NCBI GenBank assembly: GCA_958296075.1
Contig: CATQHW010000001.1
Span: 744,001-808,000, forward strand
Direction: 5' to 3'
Length of the DNA: 64,000 nt
From: an uncultured Spirochaetia bacterium
GTDB lineage: Bacteria > Spirochaetota > Spirochaetia > SZUA-6 > Bin103
Part shown: positions 1-12,566 of the stretch, in pieces
Position numbering within the stretch: the stretch's first letter is position 1
Layout of the letters: each line of letters starts with the position of its first letter
The notes under the pieces: model-generated
Told to the model about the DNA's origin: nothing
Databases searched by the model: none
What the model saw: only the letters and a program-made list of their open reading frames with translations
Translations under genes and position numbers: made by a program

Positions 1-3908
<3,908 letters not shown>

Positions 3909-4096
3909 GGCAACAGCGTATCGCATTTCCGGACAACGACAAAACGATCGATTGCGCGAACTTGGCTTGCAACGACGATCGCTGCGCGCATCGGCTGCCA
4001 GACTTTGCTGCAAGTCGCATCGTAGTACTCTCGGCCGAAGTTATAGGATGCGCGAACCTACCGAGTGATGCGTGTGCGCTCCATCTTCGCGCAAGC
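3909..4096 (-). promoter_or_regulatory. CRISPR leader and array promoter
   Basis: The 188 bp between the last repeat and the cas2 stop contain no gene and are less GC-rich than their surroundings. On the minus strand a TATAAC box (4045-4040) is a reasonable -10 for an array transcript; no convincing -35 stands out. Its position next to cas2 at the repeat end facing the cas operon is that of a type I-C leader, where new spacers are added. Leader function follows from position and orientation; the promoter box is a weaker call. Confidence 0.65.
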
Positions 4097-4387
4097 TCAT
4101 ACGACCATCGGGCCATCCGGATCGTACGATGCTTTCGCACCGACGTGCTCGACCCTCGGCCGCCAGTTGGCACCCAGCCGGTAGAACCGCAGGCTGTCCT
4201 CTCCTTCGTCGATCTCATTGATGAGTCGGGCGCGCAGCGTCGCCCACTGCGCTGGATCGACTTGGCATTCGAATACCGAGTACTGAACCCGTTGCCCGAA
4301 GTCCTGACAAAGACGAGCGACACGCCGAAGACGGCGGCGTCCGGCGGAATCTCCAGTAGCGACATCGTAGGTGACGAGCATCAGCAC
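4097..4387 (-). CDS. cas2: CRISPR-associated endoribonuclease Cas2
   Basis: 96 residues, the normal Cas2 length. It opens MLMLVTYDVATGD, the first beta strand of the ferredoxin fold, with the conserved Asp at position 8, and includes the Q-x-S-V-F-E-C strand. Cas2 forms the core of the Cas1-Cas2 integrase that inserts spacers at the leader. The gene follows cas1 by 9 bp and is the last cas gene before the leader, as in other I-C loci. Confidence 0.97.
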   Translation of the reverse strand: MLMLVTYDVATGDSAGRRRLRRVARLCQDFGQRVQYSVFECQVDPAQWATLRARLINEIDEGEDSLRFYRLGANWRPRVEHVGAKASYDPDGPMVV

Positions 4388-4396
4388 CGCGGCTAC

Positions 4397-5437
4397 CTAC
4401 CGCCAGAGAAACGGGGGATAGCCGTCGAGGTCGCCCCGTAATCGCCGAGCCATCAGCGTGGCTTGTACGAACGGCACCAGGCCGAGTGTCGTCTTTTCCT
4501 TGATAAAAGGATGAATCAGCTCGTCCTTCTTGCGTTCCTGATACGCCACGAGGGTAGCTTTCCGTGCGCCTTCGCGCAGCTTAACCGCACCGCTCATTGC
4601 CGTGTGGAAATCGCGCACCGATAGCTGTCGGCGATTGATCAGGGACAACGCGAGGCGGTCGGCCAGAACAGGCCGTAACTCCTCCATGAGATCGAGCGCC
4701 AAGCTCGGCCGCCCTGGACGCTCTCGATGCAGAAACCCCACTGCGGGATCGAGCCCTACCGACTCCAGCGCCGACCGGCAGTCGTGGACCAGCAGTGTAT
4801 AGAAGAACGAAAGCAGCGCATTCACCGGATCGAGTGGCGGCCTCCGCGAGCGACCGTTGAATGCAAATTCCGGTTCCTTGCTCAGCACAAAATCTCCGAA
4901 TACCTCATAATAGGATCGGGCAGCTTCTCCTTCGATACCACGTAACGTGCCAGTCCGATCTGATCGGGTGCCACGCCGCGCCGCATCGCTCAGACGACGC
5001 TCGCATGCTACGAGCCGCGTACGAACCGCTTCGGGCACTCTGCCGCCATGGTCACGAAGCGCACGGCGGACCACGGTCCGCTGGTTCAGGATCTTGCCGA
5101 TAACCACATTACGGACGATCGAAGCGGTCATGGTTTCGTTGTCGGTGGTCCGGTACTGGTCTCGCCGCAGCAACACGTTGCCGGAGACCGGACCTTCGAT
5201 ACGTGCCAGAAAGCGACCGCTCCGACTCATCAGGGAGATGCATACACCCCGCTCGGCGCAATGCCCCATAAGAGGCGGCGACACGCCGACCGAACCGAAG
5301 CAGACGATGGCGCCGAGCAGGTGCACGGGTATGCGCGCACGTTCTACGCCGTCGGCTTTGACAACGGCGTTCTCGCCATCCTTGTACAACCACGCGTTTT
5401 CGGTAGTCACGTAGAGTGTGTTCAGATGACGGCGCAT
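4397..5437 (-). CDS. cas1: CRISPR-associated integrase Cas1 (type I-C)
   Basis: 346 residues. The opening RRHLNTLYVTTENAWLYKDGE is typical of I-C Cas1. The metal-binding residues are visible: Glu169 in RGIEGEAA, His237 in GFLHRER and the acidic LDLMEELRP segment at 248-256. Cas1 catalyses the two transesterifications that integrate prespacers at the first repeat. It lies 11 bp after cas4 and 9 bp before cas2, so the three form one adaptation cassette; Cas4 probably sets PAM choice and prespacer trimming. No damage is visible. Confidence 0.98.
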   Translation of the reverse strand: MRRHLNTLYVTTENAWLYKDGENAVVKADGVERARIPVHLLGAIVCFGSVGVSPPLMGHCAERGVCISLMSRSGRFLARIEGPVSGNVLLRRDQYRTTDNETMTASIVRNVVIGKILNQRTVVRRALRDHGGRVPEAVRTRLVACERRLSDAARRGTRSDRTGTLRGIEGEAARSYYEVFGDFVLSKEPEFAFNGRSRRPPLDPVNALLSFFYTLLVHDCRSALESVGLDPAVGFLHRERPGRPSLALDLMEELRPVLADRLALSLINRRQLSVRDFHTAMSGAVKLREGARKATLVAYQERKKDELIHPFIKEKTTLGLVPFVQATLMARRLRGDLDGYPPFLWR

Positions 5438-5448
5438 CGACGGTGCCG

Positions 5449-6090
5449 TCAGTTATCGATAGCCCGCAAGAGCCAGCGAGCGACGGTCTGCGGTCGGCGC
5501 GGGTTCTGTGGCTGACAGCCCTGCTTGAGTGAGCAGGCGTTGCACTTCCGCGCTTCGTATTCCGGTGGAGGAGTCACGCTGGCGGCGAGCATCCGGCGCA
5601 CGTCGGCGGCGACTCGTTTCGTCAAAGTCCGTAGCTCGGAGTCAAAACGAACTTCCTTACGCCGACGATCACGTCCGTAGAACAGGGCCCCGACCGGCAC
5701 CGAAGCGCCCAGCATTTCCTCAAGACACAGCGCCTGGGCGCAAAGTTGAACCTCATCGGCGCGATGCGCCTTGGGACGGCCGCGTTTGTACTCGATGGGG
5801 TAAGGGCGAACACGGTCATGAATCTCTACTACATCGGCCACGCCTGAAACGCCAAGTGTAAGCGACCGCAGGGCTACGCTACGTTCTATTCTCACGCTGC
5901 CCCGGCGTTCTCTGCTTCCCGAGTCAGTGCGCTCATGCAGAATCCTGCCCTCCGCGGTGAAGCGGTTCTCGTCCCAGTGCTGCTCGATATGGATCAACGC
6001 GCACTGCCGTGGGCAATAGAGCATGTGCTGCAAAGCGGAAATCGGCGCCAGATCGTCTTCGGCTACGGACTCCCTCTCTCTCAGCGCCAT
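5449..6090 (-). CDS. cas4: CRISPR-associated exonuclease Cas4
   Basis: 213 residues of the RecB-like Cas4 family. Iron-sulfur ligands are Cys26 in MLYCPRQC and a C-terminal cluster Cys183, Cys186 and Cys192; a further cysteine sits at 30. Nuclease residues include Asp86 (GVADVVE), the E-x-K pair at 100-102 (PIEYKRG) and Gln115. Cas4 trims and orients prespacers carrying the right PAM for Cas1-Cas2. It lies between cas7 and cas1 with gaps of 5 and 11 bp, so it is co-transcribed with both. Confidence 0.96.
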   Translation of the reverse strand: MALRERESVAEDDLAPISALQHMLYCPRQCALIHIEQHWDENRFTAEGRILHERTDSGSRERRGSVRIERSVALRSLTLGVSGVADVVEIHDRVRPYPIEYKRGRPKAHRADEVQLCAQALCLEEMLGASVPVGALFYGRDRRRKEVRFDSELRTLTKRVAADVRRMLAASVTPPPEYEARKCNACSLKQGCQPQNPRRPQTVARWLLRAIDN

Positions 6091-6095
6091 TCGAG

Positions 6096-7016
6096 TCAGA
6101 GACGGTCCGCTACTTCGACCTCGCTTGGCAGACCCGCCTGATCGAGATGGACGACGTAGTCCGTGTATACCCGCGCCGGTGGAAGATCGCGGCGCGTGCC
6201 CGGCTCGTGTTCCTTGCCTTCGAACACGCGTTTGACCGTTACCCGTTCGAACAACCTATGCGCCGGCGCATTGCCGAGCGCGCTGCCATGTTTGAATACG
6301 ATCAGACGCCGTGCCACCATCTCGCCGCGCGCCGCCGAACGGTCATGGTCGAACATCTGTTCGAGCGCCGCCCACAGCAGTTTGAGGTCTTCTTCGGAGA
6401 AGCCCGTGCCTTTACCCGCACCGCCCGCAAGGCAGGCGGAGACATAGCCGTGGGCGCGGTAGAGACCATAGGGCACGAGATGCTTGCGCCCCATTTCCCC
6501 TTCCTCCTTGTCCACATCCGTCACGCGCGTAATCGTTTGCTCGAGTGGCACGATCGGTTCCACCGAGCGCGCGAAGGTGAACTGAACCGGGCCTCTCACC
6601 TGACCGGCGTTGGGACCCGTGGACATGACGGCGCCGAACGTTCTGATGTCGAAGTACGTGTCACAGAGCCATTTCTGCAAGGTCGCGATGTTGTCCTGTG
6701 AGCGGGTCTTGGCATCTTTCGTATCCCAGCCTCCACCCTTTTTCCTGTGATCCGGCTGTCCGTTCTCCTTGCATGCCTCCGCGATCAACGGATTCAGTGG
6801 CCGTTTCTCCTGAATGAATATCCGCCGACCTTCCTGATCCAGAAGCTGGATAAAATTGCGCACCTTTCGCTTCAGGCAGACATCGGAGACCAGTCCGTGG
6901 CCCGTCTCCGGATCCATCCGGGGCTGGTTCCCGGCGTCGGGATCACCATTAGGGTTGCCGTTGGTCACGTCGAACAGATACACGAAGTCGTAACGGTTCT
7001 TGATCGTGTTGCTCAT
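6096..7016 (-). CDS. cas7: Cascade backbone protein Cas7 (Csd2, type I-C)
   Basis: 306 residues. It opens NRYDFVYLFDVTNGNPNGDPD, the signature of I-C Cas7, and carries ARSVEPI and the KHLVPYGLYRAHGYVSA region. Several copies coat the crRNA spacer in Cascade. The ATG overlaps the cas8c/cas11 stop by 4 nt (ATGA) and has a GGAGG-type ribosome-binding site just upstream inside cas8c, so translation is probably coupled. The length is normal and no break is seen. Confidence 0.98.
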   Translation of the reverse strand: MSNTIKNRYDFVYLFDVTNGNPNGDPDAGNQPRMDPETGHGLVSDVCLKRKVRNFIQLLDQEGRRIFIQEKRPLNPLIAEACKENGQPDHRKKGGGWDTKDAKTRSQDNIATLQKWLCDTYFDIRTFGAVMSTGPNAGQVRGPVQFTFARSVEPIVPLEQTITRVTDVDKEEGEMGRKHLVPYGLYRAHGYVSACLAGGAGKGTGFSEEDLKLLWAALEQMFDHDRSAARGEMVARRLIVFKHGSALGNAPAHRLFERVTVKRVFEGKEHEPGTRRDLPPARVYTDYVVHLDQAGLPSEVEVADRL

Positions 7017-7432
7017 TCTTCATTCTCCTCCGATGGGACGGACTGATGACGATCATCAGAGTCTGCCTTGGTGTACAAAACTCTCTCCTGATGGTAGTAG
7101 CCTACGAAGAAACGAGCTTGGTCCTGGAACGGAAGGATTGCCGGCAGTTCCTCGTGTCCTGGCAGGAGTTCTATCACGTCCCCGACGGCTCTATTCGCTC
7201 GTGTGCCCGCCCCCTGCTTCTTTCGATCACCCTTGGCAAGACTTGAGCGGTTGTGTTCATAGCCTCGCATCAGTCTCGGAAAGACTAGACGCGGCGTAGC
7301 CGAAGCCGAGCCTGCGTATCTGTCTCGGATGGTCGCGTTACGATCGGTAAGGCTCTTTTCGGCATAGGCATAGATCGCGAAGAGCCGTCCGAGGTTGTAG
7401 GCGACGTTGTCGCTGTCAGTGGCGATACTCAC
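7013..7432 (-). CDS. cas11: Internal small subunit Cas11 translated from within cas8c
   Basis: In-frame GTG at 7432-7430 inside cas8c, preceded by AAAGGAGG at 7448-7441 with an 8-nt gap, the best Shine-Dalgarno sequence in the cas8c frame. It would give 139 residues starting VSIATDSDNVAYNLGRLFAI. Type I-C systems are known to make Cas11 from an internal start near the beginning of the last quarter of cas8c, just before the N-x-A-Y-x-L-G-R-L-F segment, so position and length both fit. Cas11 lines the Cascade belly and is needed for full DNA binding. What is odd here is the CRISPR-repeat copy ending 6 nt before this ribosome-binding site. Confidence 0.82.
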   Translation of the reverse strand: MSIATDSDNVAYNLGRLFAIYAYAEKSLTDRNATIRDRYAGSASATPRLVFPRLMRGYEHNRSSLAKGDRKKQGAGTRANRAVGDVIELLPGHEELPAILPFQDQARFFVGYYHQERVLYTKADSDDRHQSVPSEENEE

Positions 7433-8836
7433 CGGTACGTCCTCCTTTGCAAGTGTTTCAATCCACGCCCCCGCGTGGGAGGTGATGTCTAAGCGATAAT
7501 CACGGGCAAGGCACGCCTTGCAGATCGCCGCGCGACGGCCATTGATGTCTCCATCAGCACGTATGCGCATTATGACGCTCGTCAGCAGTGACTGCGGGTA
7601 GCGGTATCCGGTGAGGATCGAACGCATCAGGGCGCCGCACAACGTAGGGGGGACGTTCTTGGCCTTGCCCTGTACGGCCGTTTCCAGAAGCAGACGCCAA
7701 GCCGCGGGCGGAGTTTGCCAAGGCGTAGGGTCGAGGCGGAGATCATGGAAATGCTCGAGAATCCGTCTGGCGACATCGCCAATCGTTTCTTCGTACCAGA
7801 AACGGATGGATATGCGCGCTGCATTGGGGGCAAGGCCGAGCACATAGAAGCGAGTGTCCTGACGGACGTCCGGTACTACCTCGCTCAGTGGCCGGCCCTT
7901 CTCGAACCGCTTGAGTTTGTCAGCCACCGCCGCGGTCTCTTCGGAATCCGAAGGTGGTTCGGCGAGCATCGCGAACAGATCCTCTGCGGCAGTGGCGTCC
8001 CTGCCGTCTTTGGCCGCTTCAGCCCAGAAGACGGTTGTGGCGTCACCGATCTGCACACGTTGCCGACTGTCCCGCTCCAGGAGCTTATTCAATGCGGTAG
8101 TGTACGCGAAAGCCGCTCGGTCCGACACGGGTGCGTTGGAACCTTGATCCTTTCCGAACGACTTGAACGCGTCAAGATTGAATGACACGATGGCGGCGCC
8201 CGATCCTTGGGCACCCTTGACGCCCTTGACCTTGGGGTGCACCCGCGCGATAGGTGTACGCTCGCCGGAAACGAGGCAGAGCCCGCCGGTGCCGTCTGAT
8301 ACCGACAGGTGGTCGAGCCAGACGCGCCGGGCGGCTGGCCGATCATGAAGGAAGCGCATCTCTCCGTTGAGCAAGAATACGACGTTGGCGTCCAGCATGT
8401 CGCGAGCGTGAGTCAGGGATTCATATTGATCGGGTTGCCATTCATCCAGAAACGAACGGAGCGCTTGCAGGCCGTCATCAGAGACACGTGCGAGCAAGCG
8501 TTCGTGCAACGTCTTGAATGCGGCGTGCTCGCGCTCCGCGGGAACCGGTTGTTCCGTATCGCGGTCGCGCTTCACGCCGAAGACGTATGCCGTCTTGTCC
8601 CACAGGAAATTGGAGGCAACACCCGAAGTGCGCGAAAACGGTCGGGGTACCGGGCGCAGCGATGGCCGCGGCCTCCTGCTCGACGTATCCAGCAGAGATA
8701 CGACGTCGACTGGCTCGCCATCGGGCGTCAGCGCAACCGCATAGGAAATGCGCTCGCGCGAGTAACCGTACTCCGGGGCTTGGCCGTTGGTCACGAGACG
8801 GTCATAGTAGCCGGCGAGCGCCTGCAGGATGCTCAC
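7013..8836 (-). CDS. cas8c: Cascade large subunit Cas8c (Csd1)
   Basis: 607 residues from a GTG that overlaps the cas5 stop by 4 nt (GTGA). The opening SILQALAGYYDRL is the standard Csd1 start; further landmarks are NFLWDKTAYVFGV, IARVHPKVKGVKGAQGSGA, SFNLDAFKSFGKDQGSNAPVS, TALNKLL and FYVLGLAPNAARISIRFW. Cas8c recognises the PAM (TTC in type I-C) and helps recruit Cas3. The last 139 codons double as cas11. Residues about 454-464 are encoded by a CRISPR-repeat-like sequence and look like an insert between the RRAAICKACLARDYR helix and the Cas11 part. A longer frame continues upstream across cas5 but is only the cas5 shadow. Confidence 0.97.
   Translation of the reverse strand: MSILQALAGYYDRLVTNGQAPEYGYSRERISYAVALTPDGEPVDVVSLLDTSSRRPRPSLRPVPRPFSRTSGVASNFLWDKTAYVFGVKRDRDTEQPVPAEREHAAFKTLHERLLARVSDDGLQALRSFLDEWQPDQYESLTHARDMLDANVVFLLNGEMRFLHDRPAARRVWLDHLSVSDGTGGLCLVSGERTPIARVHPKVKGVKGAQGSGAAIVSFNLDAFKSFGKDQGSNAPVSDRAAFAYTTALNKLLERDSRQRVQIGDATTVFWAEAAKDGRDATAAEDLFAMLAEPPSDSEETAAVADKLKRFEKGRPLSEVVPDVRQDTRFYVLGLAPNAARISIRFWYEETIGDVARRILEHFHDLRLDPTPWQTPPAAWRLLLETAVQGKAKNVPPTLCGALMRSILTGYRYPQSLLTSVIMRIRADGDINGRRAAICKACLARDYRLDITSHAGAWIETLAKEDVPVSIATDSDNVAYNLGRLFAIYAYAEKSLTDRNATIRDRYAGSASATPRLVFPRLMRGYEHNRSSLAKGDRKKQGAGTRANRAVGDVIELLPGHEELPAILPFQDQARFFVGYYHQERVLYTKADSDDRHQSVPSEENEE
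7441..7448 (-). promoter_or_regulatory. Strong internal ribosome-binding site for cas11
   Basis: AAAGGAGG on the minus strand, 8 nt before the internal GTG. It lies 6 nt downstream of the embedded CRISPR repeat, so a hairpin formed by the repeat, or a cut within it, would change access to this site. Confidence 0.8.
7455..7486 (-). repeat. CRISPR repeat copy embedded in frame inside cas8c
   Basis: 32 bp in the coding strand of cas8c, identical to the array repeat over its last 20 nt (minus strand: GCGGGGGCG then TGGATTGAAAC) and 27 of 32 overall. The five changes all lie in the 5' arm and loop. The stem keeps most pairing (one G-U wobble, one mismatch). The reading frame passes through it as S-H-A-G-A-W-I-E-T, the same [16 protein letters not shown] peptide the array repeats would encode, so the protein carries a repeat-derived stretch between RRAAICKACLARDYRLD and EDVPVSIA. 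The Cas5 cleavage site and the 11-nt handle are intact. Confidence 0.95.
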
Positions 8837-9504
8837 GCCTTGACCTCCGCGGCGTCCAGCGGCGGTACGTCGATCGCTCCGTCCCGCAACTTGGCACGAA
8901 AGAAGCGCGCAGACATCTCGTCGCGATAGTCGATGTCGTGGAGCATCCAGCCGAGGTCTCGGTCGCGTTGATGGGAAGGCAGGCATGACTTCGGTACCGC
9001 GCCCTCGATCGGTGCGAAATCGGCCGCGAACTCGCGGGTGCCCAGATAGGGGCGATGGAAGCACTGGCCTTTGGCGGAGCGGCGGTTGAACATCGCCAAG
9101 TGTTTGGCCTCGGTGTCGCCAGCCGTCGCGGCCGCGGTGAGGACGAAGTGCGCCTCGATGAGGTAGGCCACGTCGCGCAGCACGGTCGCGGCCCGCTGCT
9201 GGCGGTCGTCCTCGATCAGCGTGCGCACCCCCTCAGCGGTGCCGCGCTTCATAGCCGCGCGGGCCGTCGCTACCGGCATCTTGCTGCCCAGCTCGTTGCG
9301 GCGCAAGGTATCGAAGCGGATGGGCTTCAGGACGTGGATGCGGTCGACCACCCAGCGGATGGCGGGCTTCCAGTGGACCGCTTCGAGGATTCCACGGGCG
9401 GCCGATGGCGTCATCACGTCGTAGGAGACCCGCTCGACCTTCATCTCCGGACGCGTGAAGCACGCATACTCGCCCCAGACGTGCAACTTCACCCCGTACG
9501 CCAT
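8833..9504 (-). CDS. cas5: Cascade subunit and crRNA endonuclease Cas5 (Cas5d/Csd5, type I-C)
   Basis: 223 residues from the ATG at 9504: MAYGVKLHVWGEYACF then TRPEMKVERVSYDVMTPSA, the near-invariant I-C Cas5 start. An upstream GTG in frame (9624) would add 40 residues that overlap hicB and lack family similarity, so I reject it. With no cas6 present, Cas5 is the enzyme that cuts pre-crRNA at the 3' base of the repeat stem and keeps the 11-nt handle. It is therefore also the candidate enzyme for the repeat copy in cas8c and the decayed repeats at 10175-10268. First gene of the cas5-8-7-4-1-2 run; no clear promoter lies just upstream. Confidence 0.97.
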   Translation of the reverse strand: MAYGVKLHVWGEYACFTRPEMKVERVSYDVMTPSAARGILEAVHWKPAIRWVVDRIHVLKPIRFDTLRRNELGSKMPVATARAAMKRGTAEGVRTLIEDDRQQRAATVLRDVAYLIEAHFVLTAAATAGDTEAKHLAMFNRRSAKGQCFHRPYLGTREFAADFAPIEGAVPKSCLPSHQRDRDLGWMLHDIDYRDEMSARFFRAKLRDGAIDVPPLDAAEVKA

Positions 9505-9534
9505 CACATCATCCCACACCCGGCGCAACCGGGG

Positions 9535-9564
9535 CTGGCACACCGAGAGCGTACTTGGTACAAT
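9535..9564 (+). promoter_or_regulatory. Putative promoter for hicB-like gene
   Basis: CTGGCA (9535-9540), an 18-bp gap and TACAAT (9559-9564) on the plus strand, about 50 bp before the chosen hicB start. It points away from cas5 and overlaps the region just upstream of the cas5 ATG, so the two opposing transcription units share this stretch. Confidence 0.5.
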
Positions 9565-9613: not shown

Positions 9614-9925
9614 ATGAGCCTCACGCTGCGCTGCTACGCCTACCGGTCCGGCCGGAGGTGGGAGGCGATATGCGTTGACCTCGACATCGCGACGTTCGGC
9701 GACTCTCTTGATGAGGTGAAGAGGTCGCTCGCAACAGGTATCGAGTTGCACCTGGAAGGGGTCGAAGAGCTGCCTGCGGAAGAGCAGAGACGTTTTCTGA
9801 CGCGACGGTCCCCGTGGCACGTGCGGGCGAAGCTGGCGTTCACGACATGGCTGAGCCGCCTTCCTCGCAACACTCGCAGATCGCTGCAATTTACGCTTCG
9901 GTCGCGAGTTCCCCTGCATCCTTAA
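9614..9925 (+). CDS. hicB: HicB-like antitoxin-fold protein
   Basis: 103 residues from the ATG at 9614 (in-frame ATGs at 9581 and 9587 are possible). MSLTLRCYAYRSGRRWEAIC and DLDIATFGDSLDEVKRSLATGIELHLEG form the partial RNase H-like fold of HicB antitoxins. The C-terminus (WLSRLPRNTRRSLQFTLRSR) is basic and I see no ribbon-helix-helix or helix-turn-helix. It faces hicA head-on; the two stop codons overlap in TTAA. Normal hicAB pairs are co-directional, so this layout is unusual and lets HicA and the HicB-like protein be controlled separately. Whether it neutralises this HicA is inference. Confidence 0.72.
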   Translation: MSLTLRCYAYRSGRRWEAICVDLDIATFGDSLDEVKRSLATGIELHLEGVEELPAEEQRRFLTRRSPWHVRAKLAFTTWLSRLPRNTRRSLQFTLRSRVPLHP

Positions 9926-10128
9926 CGGAACAGGTCGCGGGACAGGCCGGACTGGCGCCTGATAGCGGCGAGGGTTCCCTTTGGAACGTCGTCGCCGTCC
10001 GCTCCGGCAACGATGACCATCCGCTTCCGTCCGCCGACCACTCCTGTGAAGCGGCGGTGACTGCCCTTCTGGCCAACGAGATGGAGGTCGTTCGTCTCCA
10101 GGAGGCGTATCACGTCGCGGACCTTCAT
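9922..10128 (-). CDS. hicA: HicA family mRNA interferase toxin
   Basis: 68 residues. MKVRDVIRLLETNDLHLVGQ then KGSHRRFTG is the HicA double-stranded-RNA-binding-like fold, with the catalytic His24 in KGSHRRF; the C-terminal VPKGTLAAIRRQSGLS is also typical. HicA enzymes cut mRNA and stop growth. The gene sits between cas3 and cas5, on the same strand as both, 46 nt downstream of the decayed repeat 10175-10209 and about 145 nt downstream of the promoter overlapped by the guide-matched site. No good separate promoter lies directly before it, so it is probably expressed from that promoter as the tail of the pseudo-crRNA transcript. Confidence 0.88.
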   Translation of the reverse strand: MKVRDVIRLLETNDLHLVGQKGSHRRFTGVVGGRKRMVIVAGADGDDVPKGTLAAIRRQSGLSRDLFR

Positions 10129-10174: not shown

Positions 10175-10268
10175 CTGGTAATCCACATCCCCGGCAGAGC
10201 CGGGGCGACACGTCGAGGTCATGTGCACCACGTGCACGTTTCAATCCACACAGCTACCGCCGCCCGAC
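10175..10268 (-). ncRNA. CreA-like guide: degenerate repeat, 28-nt pseudo-spacer, degenerate repeat
   Basis: Read on the minus strand. The first decayed repeat (10268-10238) starts GTCG and ends GTGGATTGAAAC, keeping the Cas5 handle but not the stem. The pseudo-spacer (10237-10210) starts GTGCACGTGGTGCAC. The second decayed repeat (10209-10175) starts GTCGCCCC, has a perfect 7-bp stem (CCCCGGC with GCCGGGG, 3-nt loop) and GTGGATTACCAG, so its handle end has decayed. This matches the known CreA/CreR class of Cascade guides: mini-CRISPRs in cas loci with a short seed match to a nearby promoter. Guide nt 1-5 and 7-11 match 10290-10300 behind a TTC PAM. CreA-like function is inference from architecture plus match. 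Confidence 0.82.
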
Positions 10269-10279
10269 ACTTCATCCGT

Positions 10280-10309
10280 AATCTACTTCGTGCAGGTGGT
10301 AACGGGCAA
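10280..10309 (-). promoter_or_regulatory. Promoter of the cre-hicA unit with embedded Cascade target
   Basis: On the minus strand TTGCCC (10309-10304), an 18-bp gap and TAGATT (10285-10280), with a start expected near 10273, five bases before the first decayed repeat. The plus strand of the gap reads TTC (10287-10289) followed by GTGCAGGTGGT (10290-10300): a type I-C PAM and a protospacer whose first 11 nt match the pseudo-spacer except at position 6, which Cascade does not read. A Cascade footprint from the PAM over about 32 nt would cover the gap and the -35 box. It is entirely intergenic, after the cas3 stop. The boxes are only 4 of 6 matches each. Confidence 0.68.
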
Positions 10310-10319
10310 GTCATTCATG

Positions 10320-12566
10320 TCATACGACGAGCCCCTCGGCGGCACGGTAGGTCGGGTCGTCCCAGGTGAGGCCGACATCAGGTCGATACAGATCAAAGTT
10401 AGACAAGACAACGAATTGCATGCCGAAGTCCGCCTCGCGGACGACCGTCGCGGCGTTGGCGGAGAGCAGCGATCCTCTAGCGGACGGCGGCACAGGCACG
10501 ACGTAGGGCTGCAATCGCCGTGCGATTCGACCGGGGCGTTCCACCCACTTCAGTTCGTCGACCAAACGTTCGGCCGTTTCGTCGTTGCCGTCGGCGCCGC
10601 GGTAGGGAACGATCACCGGCACCATGGGAGTCTCGATCAGCCGGAACTCCTTGGCGATGGTCTCGAAGGGAAAGTCCAGGCTCGTCGCACGCTCACCGAG
10701 CATGCGCAGGATGGCCCTGGTGTCCAACGAAGCGTCGCCGGCGTGCCAGTAGAGCTCCTGGAAGTAACGCTGGATCGCTTCCAGGGACATGGGGTCGTCC
10801 TCGTACCGTCGCATCACGCTGCGGGCCACGTCGGCGGACTGTTCGATTTCCGTAGGGAGCTTGCGCCCGTCGTCGAACACGAACACGTCACCGACGGACG
10901 CGCGGCCCTCGCGGTTGCAGCGTCCGGCAGCCTGGATGATCGACTCCAAGCCGGCCACGGCTCGCCAGACGACCGGAAAGTCCACGTCGACGCCGGCCTC
11001 AATGAGCGACGTCGCGACCAGCCGCACGGGCGCGCCGTCGTTCAGGCGCGCTCTCACCGTTTCGAGCGTCTCGTGGCGGTGGCGCGCGCACATCAAGGTC
11101 GTCAGGTGGCAGGCGCCCTCTGACTTGCACATCGACTCGTACAGCTCCCGCGCGTGCCGGCGAGTGTTGACGATGCACAAGACCTGCCGCTCCGCACTCA
11201 GACGCGCCGCCAAGTGGCGGTCGTCCATCGTCCCCTGTTGGCGTATCCGCGTGCGCTCCAGGGTTCGGTAGAGGCGCTTCGGGTCGGGCGCAAGCTCGCG
11301 CAGATCCTCGAAGCCGCCGTCGAAGCCATCTTTCTGGCCCAGGGCCGGCTGGGTTGCGGTGCAGAGCACGATGCTGGCGCGCCAGTTTCGGGCCAGTTCA
11401 TCAATAGTCGCGGCGCACGGGCGCAGCAACTTCAGCGGCAACGTCTGCGCTTCGTCCAGAATGATCACGCTGTTGGCGATGTTGTGCAGCTTGCGGCAGC
11501 GCGAGGGACGGTTGGAGAACAGGCTCTCGAAGAACTGGACGGCGGTGGTGACGATGATCGGAGCGTCCCAGTTCTCCATCGCCAGACGTAACTTTTCCTT
11601 TGCTTCCCGGTTCTTGATCTGATCTTCGTCGAACGTACTGTGATGCTCGACGACGAAGTCGGCCGCATCGGCATCGTCCCGACGTAGCGCATCCCGGAAC
11701 ACGGAAGCCGTCTGTTCGATGATGCTCATATACGGGATGACGTAAATGACGCGCGCCAGCCCATGATACACCGCGTGGTTCAGGGCGAAGGCGAGAGAAG
11801 TCAGCGTCTTGCCTCCGCCCGTCGGCACGGTCAGCGTGAACAGCCCGGGCGGCTCTGCGGCCCGCTGCCGGGCATGGCCGAGCACCTCCCGGCGCAGCAT
11901 GTTCACGTTGCCAGCCTTGGCGCTTTCGGTAAGGGCGTCGAGATAGGCATCCAGGCGCCCTGACAGTTCACGGAGACCCGGGTGCTGCCCGCGCGGCTTC
12001 TCCTGGTCATCCAGCCTGTCGAAATAGGCTTCGGTGTCCAGAAAGTCGGCATCCACGAGCGCGGAGAACACCATGCGGATGAAGAACGCGGCGCAGAACC
12101 CAAGTGAATCCCTGTCGCGCGGCTTTAGAGACGATCGCGCCGGCGGCTTCGGAGGGGAAATCTGTCCCCGCCATACCGGATCGAGGTGCGGGATCGGTTT
12201 CTGGAGCCGGTCAGCCAATGCGGTGATCTGCTCACCGTTTACGCCGTTGGCAAGGCCGGCATGATGGCCGGCGATGCAGAAGGCCAGCAGCTTGCCGAGC
12301 TTGTCCCCATAACGTTCGATCGCGGCCTTGGCGCCGGCGGTGGAGTGGTCGACGACTCGGCTTCCGCCATCGAGCCGCGTCTGGAACTCCGGCGCATACT
12401 TGCCGAGATCGTGCAGCAGGCCGACCGCACGGCCGATCTCGGCCAGACCTGCGATATCGAGAAACGCTGCTGCCCGCTCCGCGGTATCTTCAAGATGTAC
12501 CGACAACCGATGCCAGTCCCGTCGGTTGGCGGATTCAGCGCTGTGCGCGTAGTAACGTGAGATCAC
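10320..12566 (-). CDS. cas3: CRISPR-associated helicase-nuclease Cas3
   Basis: 748 residues in normal HD-helicase order. The HD nuclease has His52-Asp53 in GLLHDLGKYAPEF and HSTAGAKAA; the SF2 helicase has TVPTGGGKTLTSLAFAL (Walker A), ILDEAQTLPLKLL (motif II), LCTATQPAL (motif III) and AAGRCNREG (motif VI). Cas3 is recruited by target-bound Cascade, then unwinds and degrades the invader. Cas3 is first in I-C operons, but here about 0.8 kb of hicA, cre and hicB separate it from cas5, so Cascade and Cas3 may be expressed independently. Only 45 bp separate its start from the sulfatase gene upstream on the same strand. Confidence 0.98.
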   Translation of the reverse strand: MISRYYAHSAESANRRDWHRLSVHLEDTAERAAAFLDIAGLAEIGRAVGLLHDLGKYAPEFQTRLDGGSRVVDHSTAGAKAAIERYGDKLGKLLAFCIAGHHAGLANGVNGEQITALADRLQKPIPHLDPVWRGQISPPKPPARSSLKPRDRDSLGFCAAFFIRMVFSALVDADFLDTEAYFDRLDDQEKPRGQHPGLRELSGRLDAYLDALTESAKAGNVNMLRREVLGHARQRAAEPPGLFTLTVPTGGGKTLTSLAFALNHAVYHGLARVIYVIPYMSIIEQTASVFRDALRRDDADAADFVVEHHSTFDEDQIKNREAKEKLRLAMENWDAPIIVTTAVQFFESLFSNRPSRCRKLHNIANSVIILDEAQTLPLKLLRPCAATIDELARNWRASIVLCTATQPALGQKDGFDGGFEDLRELAPDPKRLYRTLERTRIRQQGTMDDRHLAARLSAERQVLCIVNTRRHARELYESMCKSEGACHLTTLMCARHRHETLETVRARLNDGAPVRLVATSLIEAGVDVDFPVVWRAVAGLESIIQAAGRCNREGRASVGDVFVFDDGRKLPTEIEQSADVARSVMRRYEDDPMSLEAIQRYFQELYWHAGDASLDTRAILRMLGERATSLDFPFETIAKEFRLIETPMVPVIVPYRGADGNDETAERLVDELKWVERPGRIARRLQPYVVPVPPSARGSLLSANAATVVREADFGMQFVVLSNFDLYRPDVGLTWDDPTYRAAEGLVV

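Follow-up and report, generated by a model that had tools for sequence, protein, structure and literature searches.

A CreA-like mini-CRISPR guide aimed beside hicA in a type I-C cas locus: a candidate for Cascade control of a protein toxin

A toxin gene inside a type I-C cas locus

Why would a single toxin need both a protein antitoxin and an RNA-guided one? This question is raised by a hicA gene that lies beside a putative Cascade guide in the window analyzed here, by which we mean the whole 64,000-nucleotide stretch from an uncultured Spirochaetia bacterium. The minus strand of the window carries a full and intact type I-C set in the order cas3, an insert, cas5c, cas8c, cas7, cas4, cas1, and cas2, followed by the array. 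cas3 (Cas3c; 10320 to 12566; PADLOC Cas3c, E = 3e-223) encodes the Cas3 HD and helicase domains recognized by Pfam/NCBIfam, and cas5c (8833 to 9507; PADLOC Cas5c, E = 4e-76) encodes what we take to be the pre-crRNA processing nuclease of this type. These are accompanied by cas8c (7013 to 9064; TIGR01863, E = 4e-155), whose annotated start is probably too far upstream, cas7 (6096 to 7016; TIGR02589), cas4 (5449 to 6090; TIGR00372), cas1 (4397 to 5437; TIGR03640), and cas2 (4097 to 4387; PADLOC Cas2c, E = 1e-42). The array, on the same strand (1 to 3950), consists of 58 repeats, GTCGCCCCCCGTGCGGGGGCGTGGATTGAAAC, separated by spacers of 31 to 42 nt. Duplicated or near-identical spacers occur at 2369 to 2435 and 2503 to 2569, and again at 3056 to 3085 and 3599 to 3628.

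The insert in the cas3-cas5 gap comprises a mini-CRISPR (10268 to 10178), hicA (10128 to 9922, minus strand), and a hicB-like gene (9614 to 9925, plus strand), with 190 bp between the end of cas3 and hicA. Since none of the 29 other I-C loci from the window's phylum carries this cassette, and cas3 directly abuts cas5 in most of them, the arrangement cas3-psiCRISPR-hicA-hicB-cas5 represents an insertion.

The hicA product, a 68-amino-acid protein of the mRNA-interferase toxin family (Pfam HicA_toxin PF07927, E = 2.4e-13), carries the motif GSH(24)RRF with the catalytic-type histidine that characterizes the dsRBD-like HicA toxins of HicAB modules, and a profile search matched it to the solved HicA structures 4c26 and 6g26. 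The hicB-like gene, which was missing from the first-pass annotation, encodes 103 amino acids and is convergent with hicA, which it overlaps by 4 bp. Its product had no match in a Pfam search and has no recognizable DNA-binding domain. The HicB antitoxins of type II modules have a partial RNase H fold; HicB3 and HicB-like antitoxins were among the top matches of the structural model made for this protein (pLDDT 78), a weak likeness with E values above 0.1. Based on this fold match, synteny, and the conservation of the partner in relatives, the gene probably encodes a protein antitoxin, so the outcome would depend on the HicA:HicB ratio. A promoter scan of the plus strand found one sigma70-like site ahead of the hicB-like gene, CTGGCA-18-TACAAT with a TG extension (9535 to 9564), relative to 0.3 expected.

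In more distant relatives (L016, L047, L048, L055, and L056), hicA and hicB are co-directional. The pair in the window (9614 to 10128) and the one in L005 (5001 to 5515) belong to one subfamily in which hicA and hicB converge and overlap; since the latter has no cas genes nearby, such a pair can exist without CRISPR. A search of plasmids for HicA and HicB returned none, and the corresponding searches of viral contigs returned only eight distant loci, including two HicB loci with hicA but no cas match. Cas5 was not found in viral contigs.

The decayed mini-CRISPR and its target

The first-pass annotation had described two decayed I-C repeats around a 28-nt pseudo-spacer in the cas3-hicA gap, and comparison with the array repeat bore this out, with the coordinates and the seed arithmetic correct to within 1 nt. 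The first repeat on the minus strand, psiR1 (GTCGGGCGGCGGTAGCTGTGTGGATTGAAAC; 10268 to 10238), ends in the 5' handle TGGATTGAAAC, which is identical to the array repeat at all 11 positions, whereas the remainder matches at 11/21 positions and forms a weak hairpin. The pseudo-spacer psiS follows on the same strand (GTGCACGTGGTGCACATGACCTCGACGT; 10237 to 10210), and the guide read from the end of psiR1 begins with GTGCACGTGGTGCACATG. The second repeat, psiR2 (GTCGCCCCGGCTCTGCCGGGGATGTGGATTAC; 10209 to 10178, minus strand), has decayed at its other end: its 5' part retains 16 of 21 positions and the stem (3' handle), with a hairpin of -13.8 kcal/mol, whereas its tail retains 3 of 11 and has lost the GAAAC end. 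With 21 identical positions of about 31, psiR1 and psiR2 lack the near-identity of repeats in ordinary arrays or mini-arrays. The repeats of creA genes decay in the same asymmetric manner, with psiR1 keeping the handle and psiR2 keeping the stem (PMC8501985). Such asymmetry would be expected to yield one guide rather than two.

The plus strand located 53 bp upstream of the guide reads TTC-GTGCAGGTGGTAACG. Within this stretch, the TTC (10287 to 10289) is followed by the seed target GTGCAGGTGGT (10290 to 10300), the plus strand being the non-target strand. As the first-pass annotation had claimed, the guide matches behind TTC at 10/10 positions when positions 1 to 5 and 7 to 11 are counted, with mismatches at positions 6 and 12; pairing after position 12 is random (3/16 matches). 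TTC is the PAM expected for type I-C, and the same trinucleotide flanks the targets of all four further I-C circuits with a 10/10 seed that are described below. When the spacers of the array were searched against phages for a PAM, no convincing protospacers were obtained, so the assignment of TTC rests on those circuits and on general knowledge. The pattern of pairing is that of CreA in Haloarcula, for which mutations demonstrated that pairing at positions 1 to 5 and 7 to 11 is sufficient; known CreA guides require precisely those ten bases, and changes at positions 6 and 12 are tolerated (PMC8501985).

The exact string TTC+GTGCANGTGGT occurs once in the 4.05-Mb genome, at the target itself. 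A further 20 sites have one mismatch; divided among the 39 single changes that can be made, they give an expectation of ~0.5 exact sites genome-wide and a chance of ~2.4e-5 (~0.5 x 190/4.05e6) of finding one in the 190-bp gap. The second-best site behind TTC within the window reaches 8/10, and when the 50-bp upstream region was put through 20,000 dinucleotide shuffles, 10/10 with TTC was never reached.

The first-pass annotation had placed this target within a promoter, TTGCCC-18-TAGATT (10280 to 10309, minus strand), and had proposed that hicA is silenced through it. The guide and a target beside hicA stand, but the promoter has no statistical support: its score of 8/12 was also reached by about a third of shuffled sequences, and a promoter scanner made no call there. 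Since scores of this size are common among shuffles, we dropped the promoter as independent evidence.

Related designs in other I-C loci

For unbiased detection, we surveyed 56 I-C loci: 26 gammaproteobacterial ones and 30 of the window's phylum, the window among them. The survey looked for any handle-like 12-mer that is followed by a guide whose seed matches, at 10/10 positions, a site behind TTC no more than 500 bp away. Five loci matched: the window and four gammaproteobacterial loci (L102, L104, L108, and L109). In contrast, nine controls using shifted guides or other 12-mers each gave 0 or 1 match. The circuits of L102, L104, and L108 are sited in the cas3-cas5 gap, as in the window.

The targets of L102 and L104 overlie the TTGACA -35 element of a near-consensus promoter, TTGACA-16-TATACT, ahead of an open reading frame (ORF) of 50 to 51 amino acids, which is followed by the mini-CRISPR and then by cas5. 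The two small proteins have a C-terminal hydrophobic segment and are 43% identical to each other; they are candidates for a CRISPR-repressed membrane toxin family. The psiR1-psiS-psiR2 unit stands directly before cas5 in both loci (L102, 1149 to 1500; L104, 1125 to 1490; cas5-forward).

A second group of small hydrophobic ORFs, which share the motif ELR...T.L...RF, lies beside mini-CRISPR guides in L108 (1224 to 1500), L113 (1190 to 1480), and L118 (1137 to 1490). The seed match is 10/10 in L108 and 9/10 behind TTC in L113 and L118. The strand of these ORFs relative to cas5 varies, and those of L108 and L113 run away from it. In L109 (G724), a 10/10 circuit lies upstream of cas5, with its target just upstream of a TTGACA-18-TATACT promoter. 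None of the small ORFs accompanying these circuits reaches a curated Pfam cutoff. Two further loci with a 10/10 seed and a mismatch at position 6, L085 (~1255 to 1350; PAM TTT) and L125 (~2464 to 2600; PAM GTT), were excluded from the survey count on account of their PAMs; they possibly reflect other PAM preferences or chance.

The strongest support for a functional circuit comes from the recurrence of one design whose guides and toxin-like genes are unrelated and whose usual site is the cas3-cas5 gap. Together with the seed at positions 1 to 5 and 7 to 11, the TTC, and the CreA-type decay of the repeats, this recurrence makes the earlier proposal of a CreA-like guide aimed beside hicA a well-supported one.

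The cassette itself, cas3-psiCRISPR-hicA-hicB(antisense)-cas5, was found twice more, in L006/L007 (a gammaproteobacterial metagenome-assembled genome [MAG] contig) and in L128/L131 (genome G1138). Their Cas5 proteins are 72 to 78% and their Cas3 proteins 65 to 73% identical to those of the window, and L006 and L128 have repeat relics at the same place. The psiR1 handle of L006 is kept at 13 of 14 positions and lies 115 bp ahead of hicA, relative to 110 bp in the window. The L006 guide has no 9/10 or 10/10 target behind TTC on its 9-kb contig, nor did shifting the guide by -4 to +5 or allowing variant PAMs reveal one. We discounted apparent stops in the Cas8c of L006, as the N-terminal stretch where they occur is probably non-coding. 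The guide seed of L128, GTGCACATGGT, is identical to that of the window at 10 of 11 positions, and the handle and target have eroded. In L128/L131 (L131, 9235 to 12992), cas5 is interrupted by an in-frame stop and cas3 by a frameshift, which may also be assembly errors; an eroded guide combined with broken cas genes is consistent with a guard model without proving it.

The first-pass annotation had suggested asking whether guide and promoter co-vary in related loci. When this check was run on L006 and L128/L131, neither had a complete guide-target pair, which leaves conservation of the circuit without support, even though the element itself is common to all of them. Among the carriers of the cassette, only the window has the complete circuit.

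Repression by Cascade and comparison with known systems

These data are best explained by a model in which the type I-C Cascade represses HicA by means of a CreA-type guide and HicB probably serves as a second lock; we give this reading a probability of about 0.6. Transcription on the cas strand, from a presumed start, would produce a psiR1-psiS-psiR2 RNA, from which Cas5c would release a crRNA-like guide of the CreA type. This guide would bring Cascade (Cas5c-Cas8c-Cas7) to the seed target upstream of psiR1, where seed-only pairing would block transcription into psiS-hicA without cleavage by Cas3. If Cascade were lost or inhibited, hicA would be derepressed and its presumably toxic product made. 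The hicB-like antitoxin, whose gene points toward hicA and has a promoter-like site of its own, would act as the second lock by neutralizing HicA. The earlier claim that loss of Cascade would free HicA overlooked this partner; we retain the step as part of the model. We count against the model that HicB could neutralize HicA without Cascade, that the candidate promoter is at chance level, that the circuits of L006 and L128/L131 are incomplete, and that L005 has the convergent pair without cas genes.

An unlikely alternative is that the guide is a CreR-like autoregulator that lets Cascade tune cas5-cas8c-cas7, with hicA as a passenger or incidental client. A scan of the minus strand between hicA and cas5 found no sigma70-like promoter, so cas5 may be read from the targeted region, and the mini-CRISPR of L102 and L104 is placed between the targeted promoter and cas5, right next to the latter; moreover, CreR is known from types I-B, I-E, and V-A. 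However, the first gene after the mini-CRISPR is hicA, small ORFs resembling toxins are also found with the remaining I-C circuits, and the L108/L113 ORF points away from cas5. The CreR-like and toxin-guard roles can also coexist.

It is rather improbable that the window holds a relic, namely, a decayed CreA module that once regulated hicA and has left HicB alone in control of HicA. The incomplete circuits of both relatives and the weak-looking candidate promoter would fit this history, but the window has its cas genes, handle, seed, PAM, and target all intact together, and a neutral 13-base PAM-plus-seed match would erode fast.

Slightly less probable still is that the GTGCA-x-GTGGT blocks form an inverted repeat that acts independently of Cascade, either as a protein operator or as a hairpin in a cas3 read-through mRNA. 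Target and guide are indeed inverted and pair in the folded read-through RNA, and psiS contains the palindromes GTGCAC and CACGTG. An inverted repeat nevertheless predicts neither the TTC PAM, nor the mismatch at position 6, nor a block that starts exactly at the end of the handle; furthermore, the combination of handle, seed, and TTC is seen again, on unrelated sequences, in L102, L104, L108, and L109, and the hicB-like protein lacks a DNA-binding domain. That a leftover two-repeat mini-array should carry a spacer matching nearby DNA by accident is scarcely credible, for although mini-arrays and orphan repeats exist, the genome-wide count (~2e-5 for the match), the shuffles, and the controls of the I-C survey led us to reject a chance match, and the design recurs in other I-C loci.

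Beyond the proposed Cascade repression of hicA in the window, we suggest more tentatively, at a little under even odds, that the I-C cas3-cas5 gap harbors a general, modular anti-anti-CRISPR device. The protein toxins repressed by its CreA-type guide would be exchangeable, being HicA in the window and small membrane proteins in several Gammaproteobacteria, and the HicA version would be double-locked by Cascade and convergent HicB and released only by combined loss or Acr attack. If so, toxins annotated as ordinary toxin-antitoxin (TA) components or hypothetical proteins would be guarded by Cascade, and the cas3-cas5 gap would be a place to seek Acr-triggered suicide modules. A recent review raises the question of whether guards like CreTA and CrePA occur beyond the CRISPR types and toxins already known (PMC12737573). 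The window and the other I-C circuits supply specific type I-C candidates: on the one hand a textbook mRNA interferase, on the other two groups of small membrane proteins.

The first-pass suggestion that a protein toxin under such control would be new is too strong, since CrePA and a translated CreT of Citrobacter rodentium have already been published. The searchable literature, outside which the primary papers Li 2021 and Shu 2025 lie, yielded no type I-C CreA or CreR and no CRISPR-HicA example. Provisionally, the novelty lies in the identity of the guarded toxin, HicA, and in the type of the host system, I-C.

Among known arrangements, conventional type II HicAB modules share with the window the HicA family, the GSH motif, and a HicB-like partner. 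They differ in that hicA and hicB form one operon, whereas in the window the genes are convergent, the hicB-like product has no recognizable DNA-binding domain, and the pair sits inside a cas operon behind a mini-CRISPR. CreR resembles the window in having a degenerate mini-CRISPR guide with a partial match in a cas locus, there to a promoter and here to a candidate one, but it regulates cas genes without a toxin, whereas the nearest gene here is hicA. The available portion of the report on the type I-E CreT of C. rodentium describes a translated, Cascade-repressed toxin by cas3 with its target beside the toxin promoter (PMC12055562). Unlike hicA, it is a 96-bp ORF without homologues, and that portion makes no mention of a protein antitoxin.

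In CrePA (Shu et al. 2025, as reviewed in PMC12737573), a crRNA-like guide and the CRISPR effector repress the gene for a protein toxin, CreP, which is described as having a KilA-N domain and acting on FtsZ; anti-CRISPR proteins induce the system. The window likewise has a protein toxin beside a guide, but HicA_toxin is the only domain found in it, and a HicB-like partner accompanies it; since it lacks KilA-N, the module is not the CrePA described. The haloarchaeal type I-B CreTA, a toxin-antitoxin RNA pair marked by Cascade-dependent repression and by toxicity once Cascade is lost, is similar in having two diverged, degenerate repeats around a pseudo-spacer inside the cas locus, with the asymmetry of psiR1 handle and psiR2 stem that is seen in the window and also in L102/L104, and in having a guide that pairs at positions 1 to 5 and 7 to 11 with a TTC-flanked site beside the toxin. 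The PAM-flanked site that CreTA has at its toxin promoter is represented in the window by the seed and TTC, together with a candidate promoter at chance level. In the CreTA of H. hubeiense, as may be the case here, the guide and the toxin may share one self-repressed promoter. CreTA, however, uses Cas6 and an RNA toxin that sequesters a rare tRNA, whereas the window pairs Cas5c of type I-C with a protein mRNA interferase and a protein antitoxin; because its toxin is a protein, the module is not CreTA by definition. By analogy, it would work like CreTA and CrePA.
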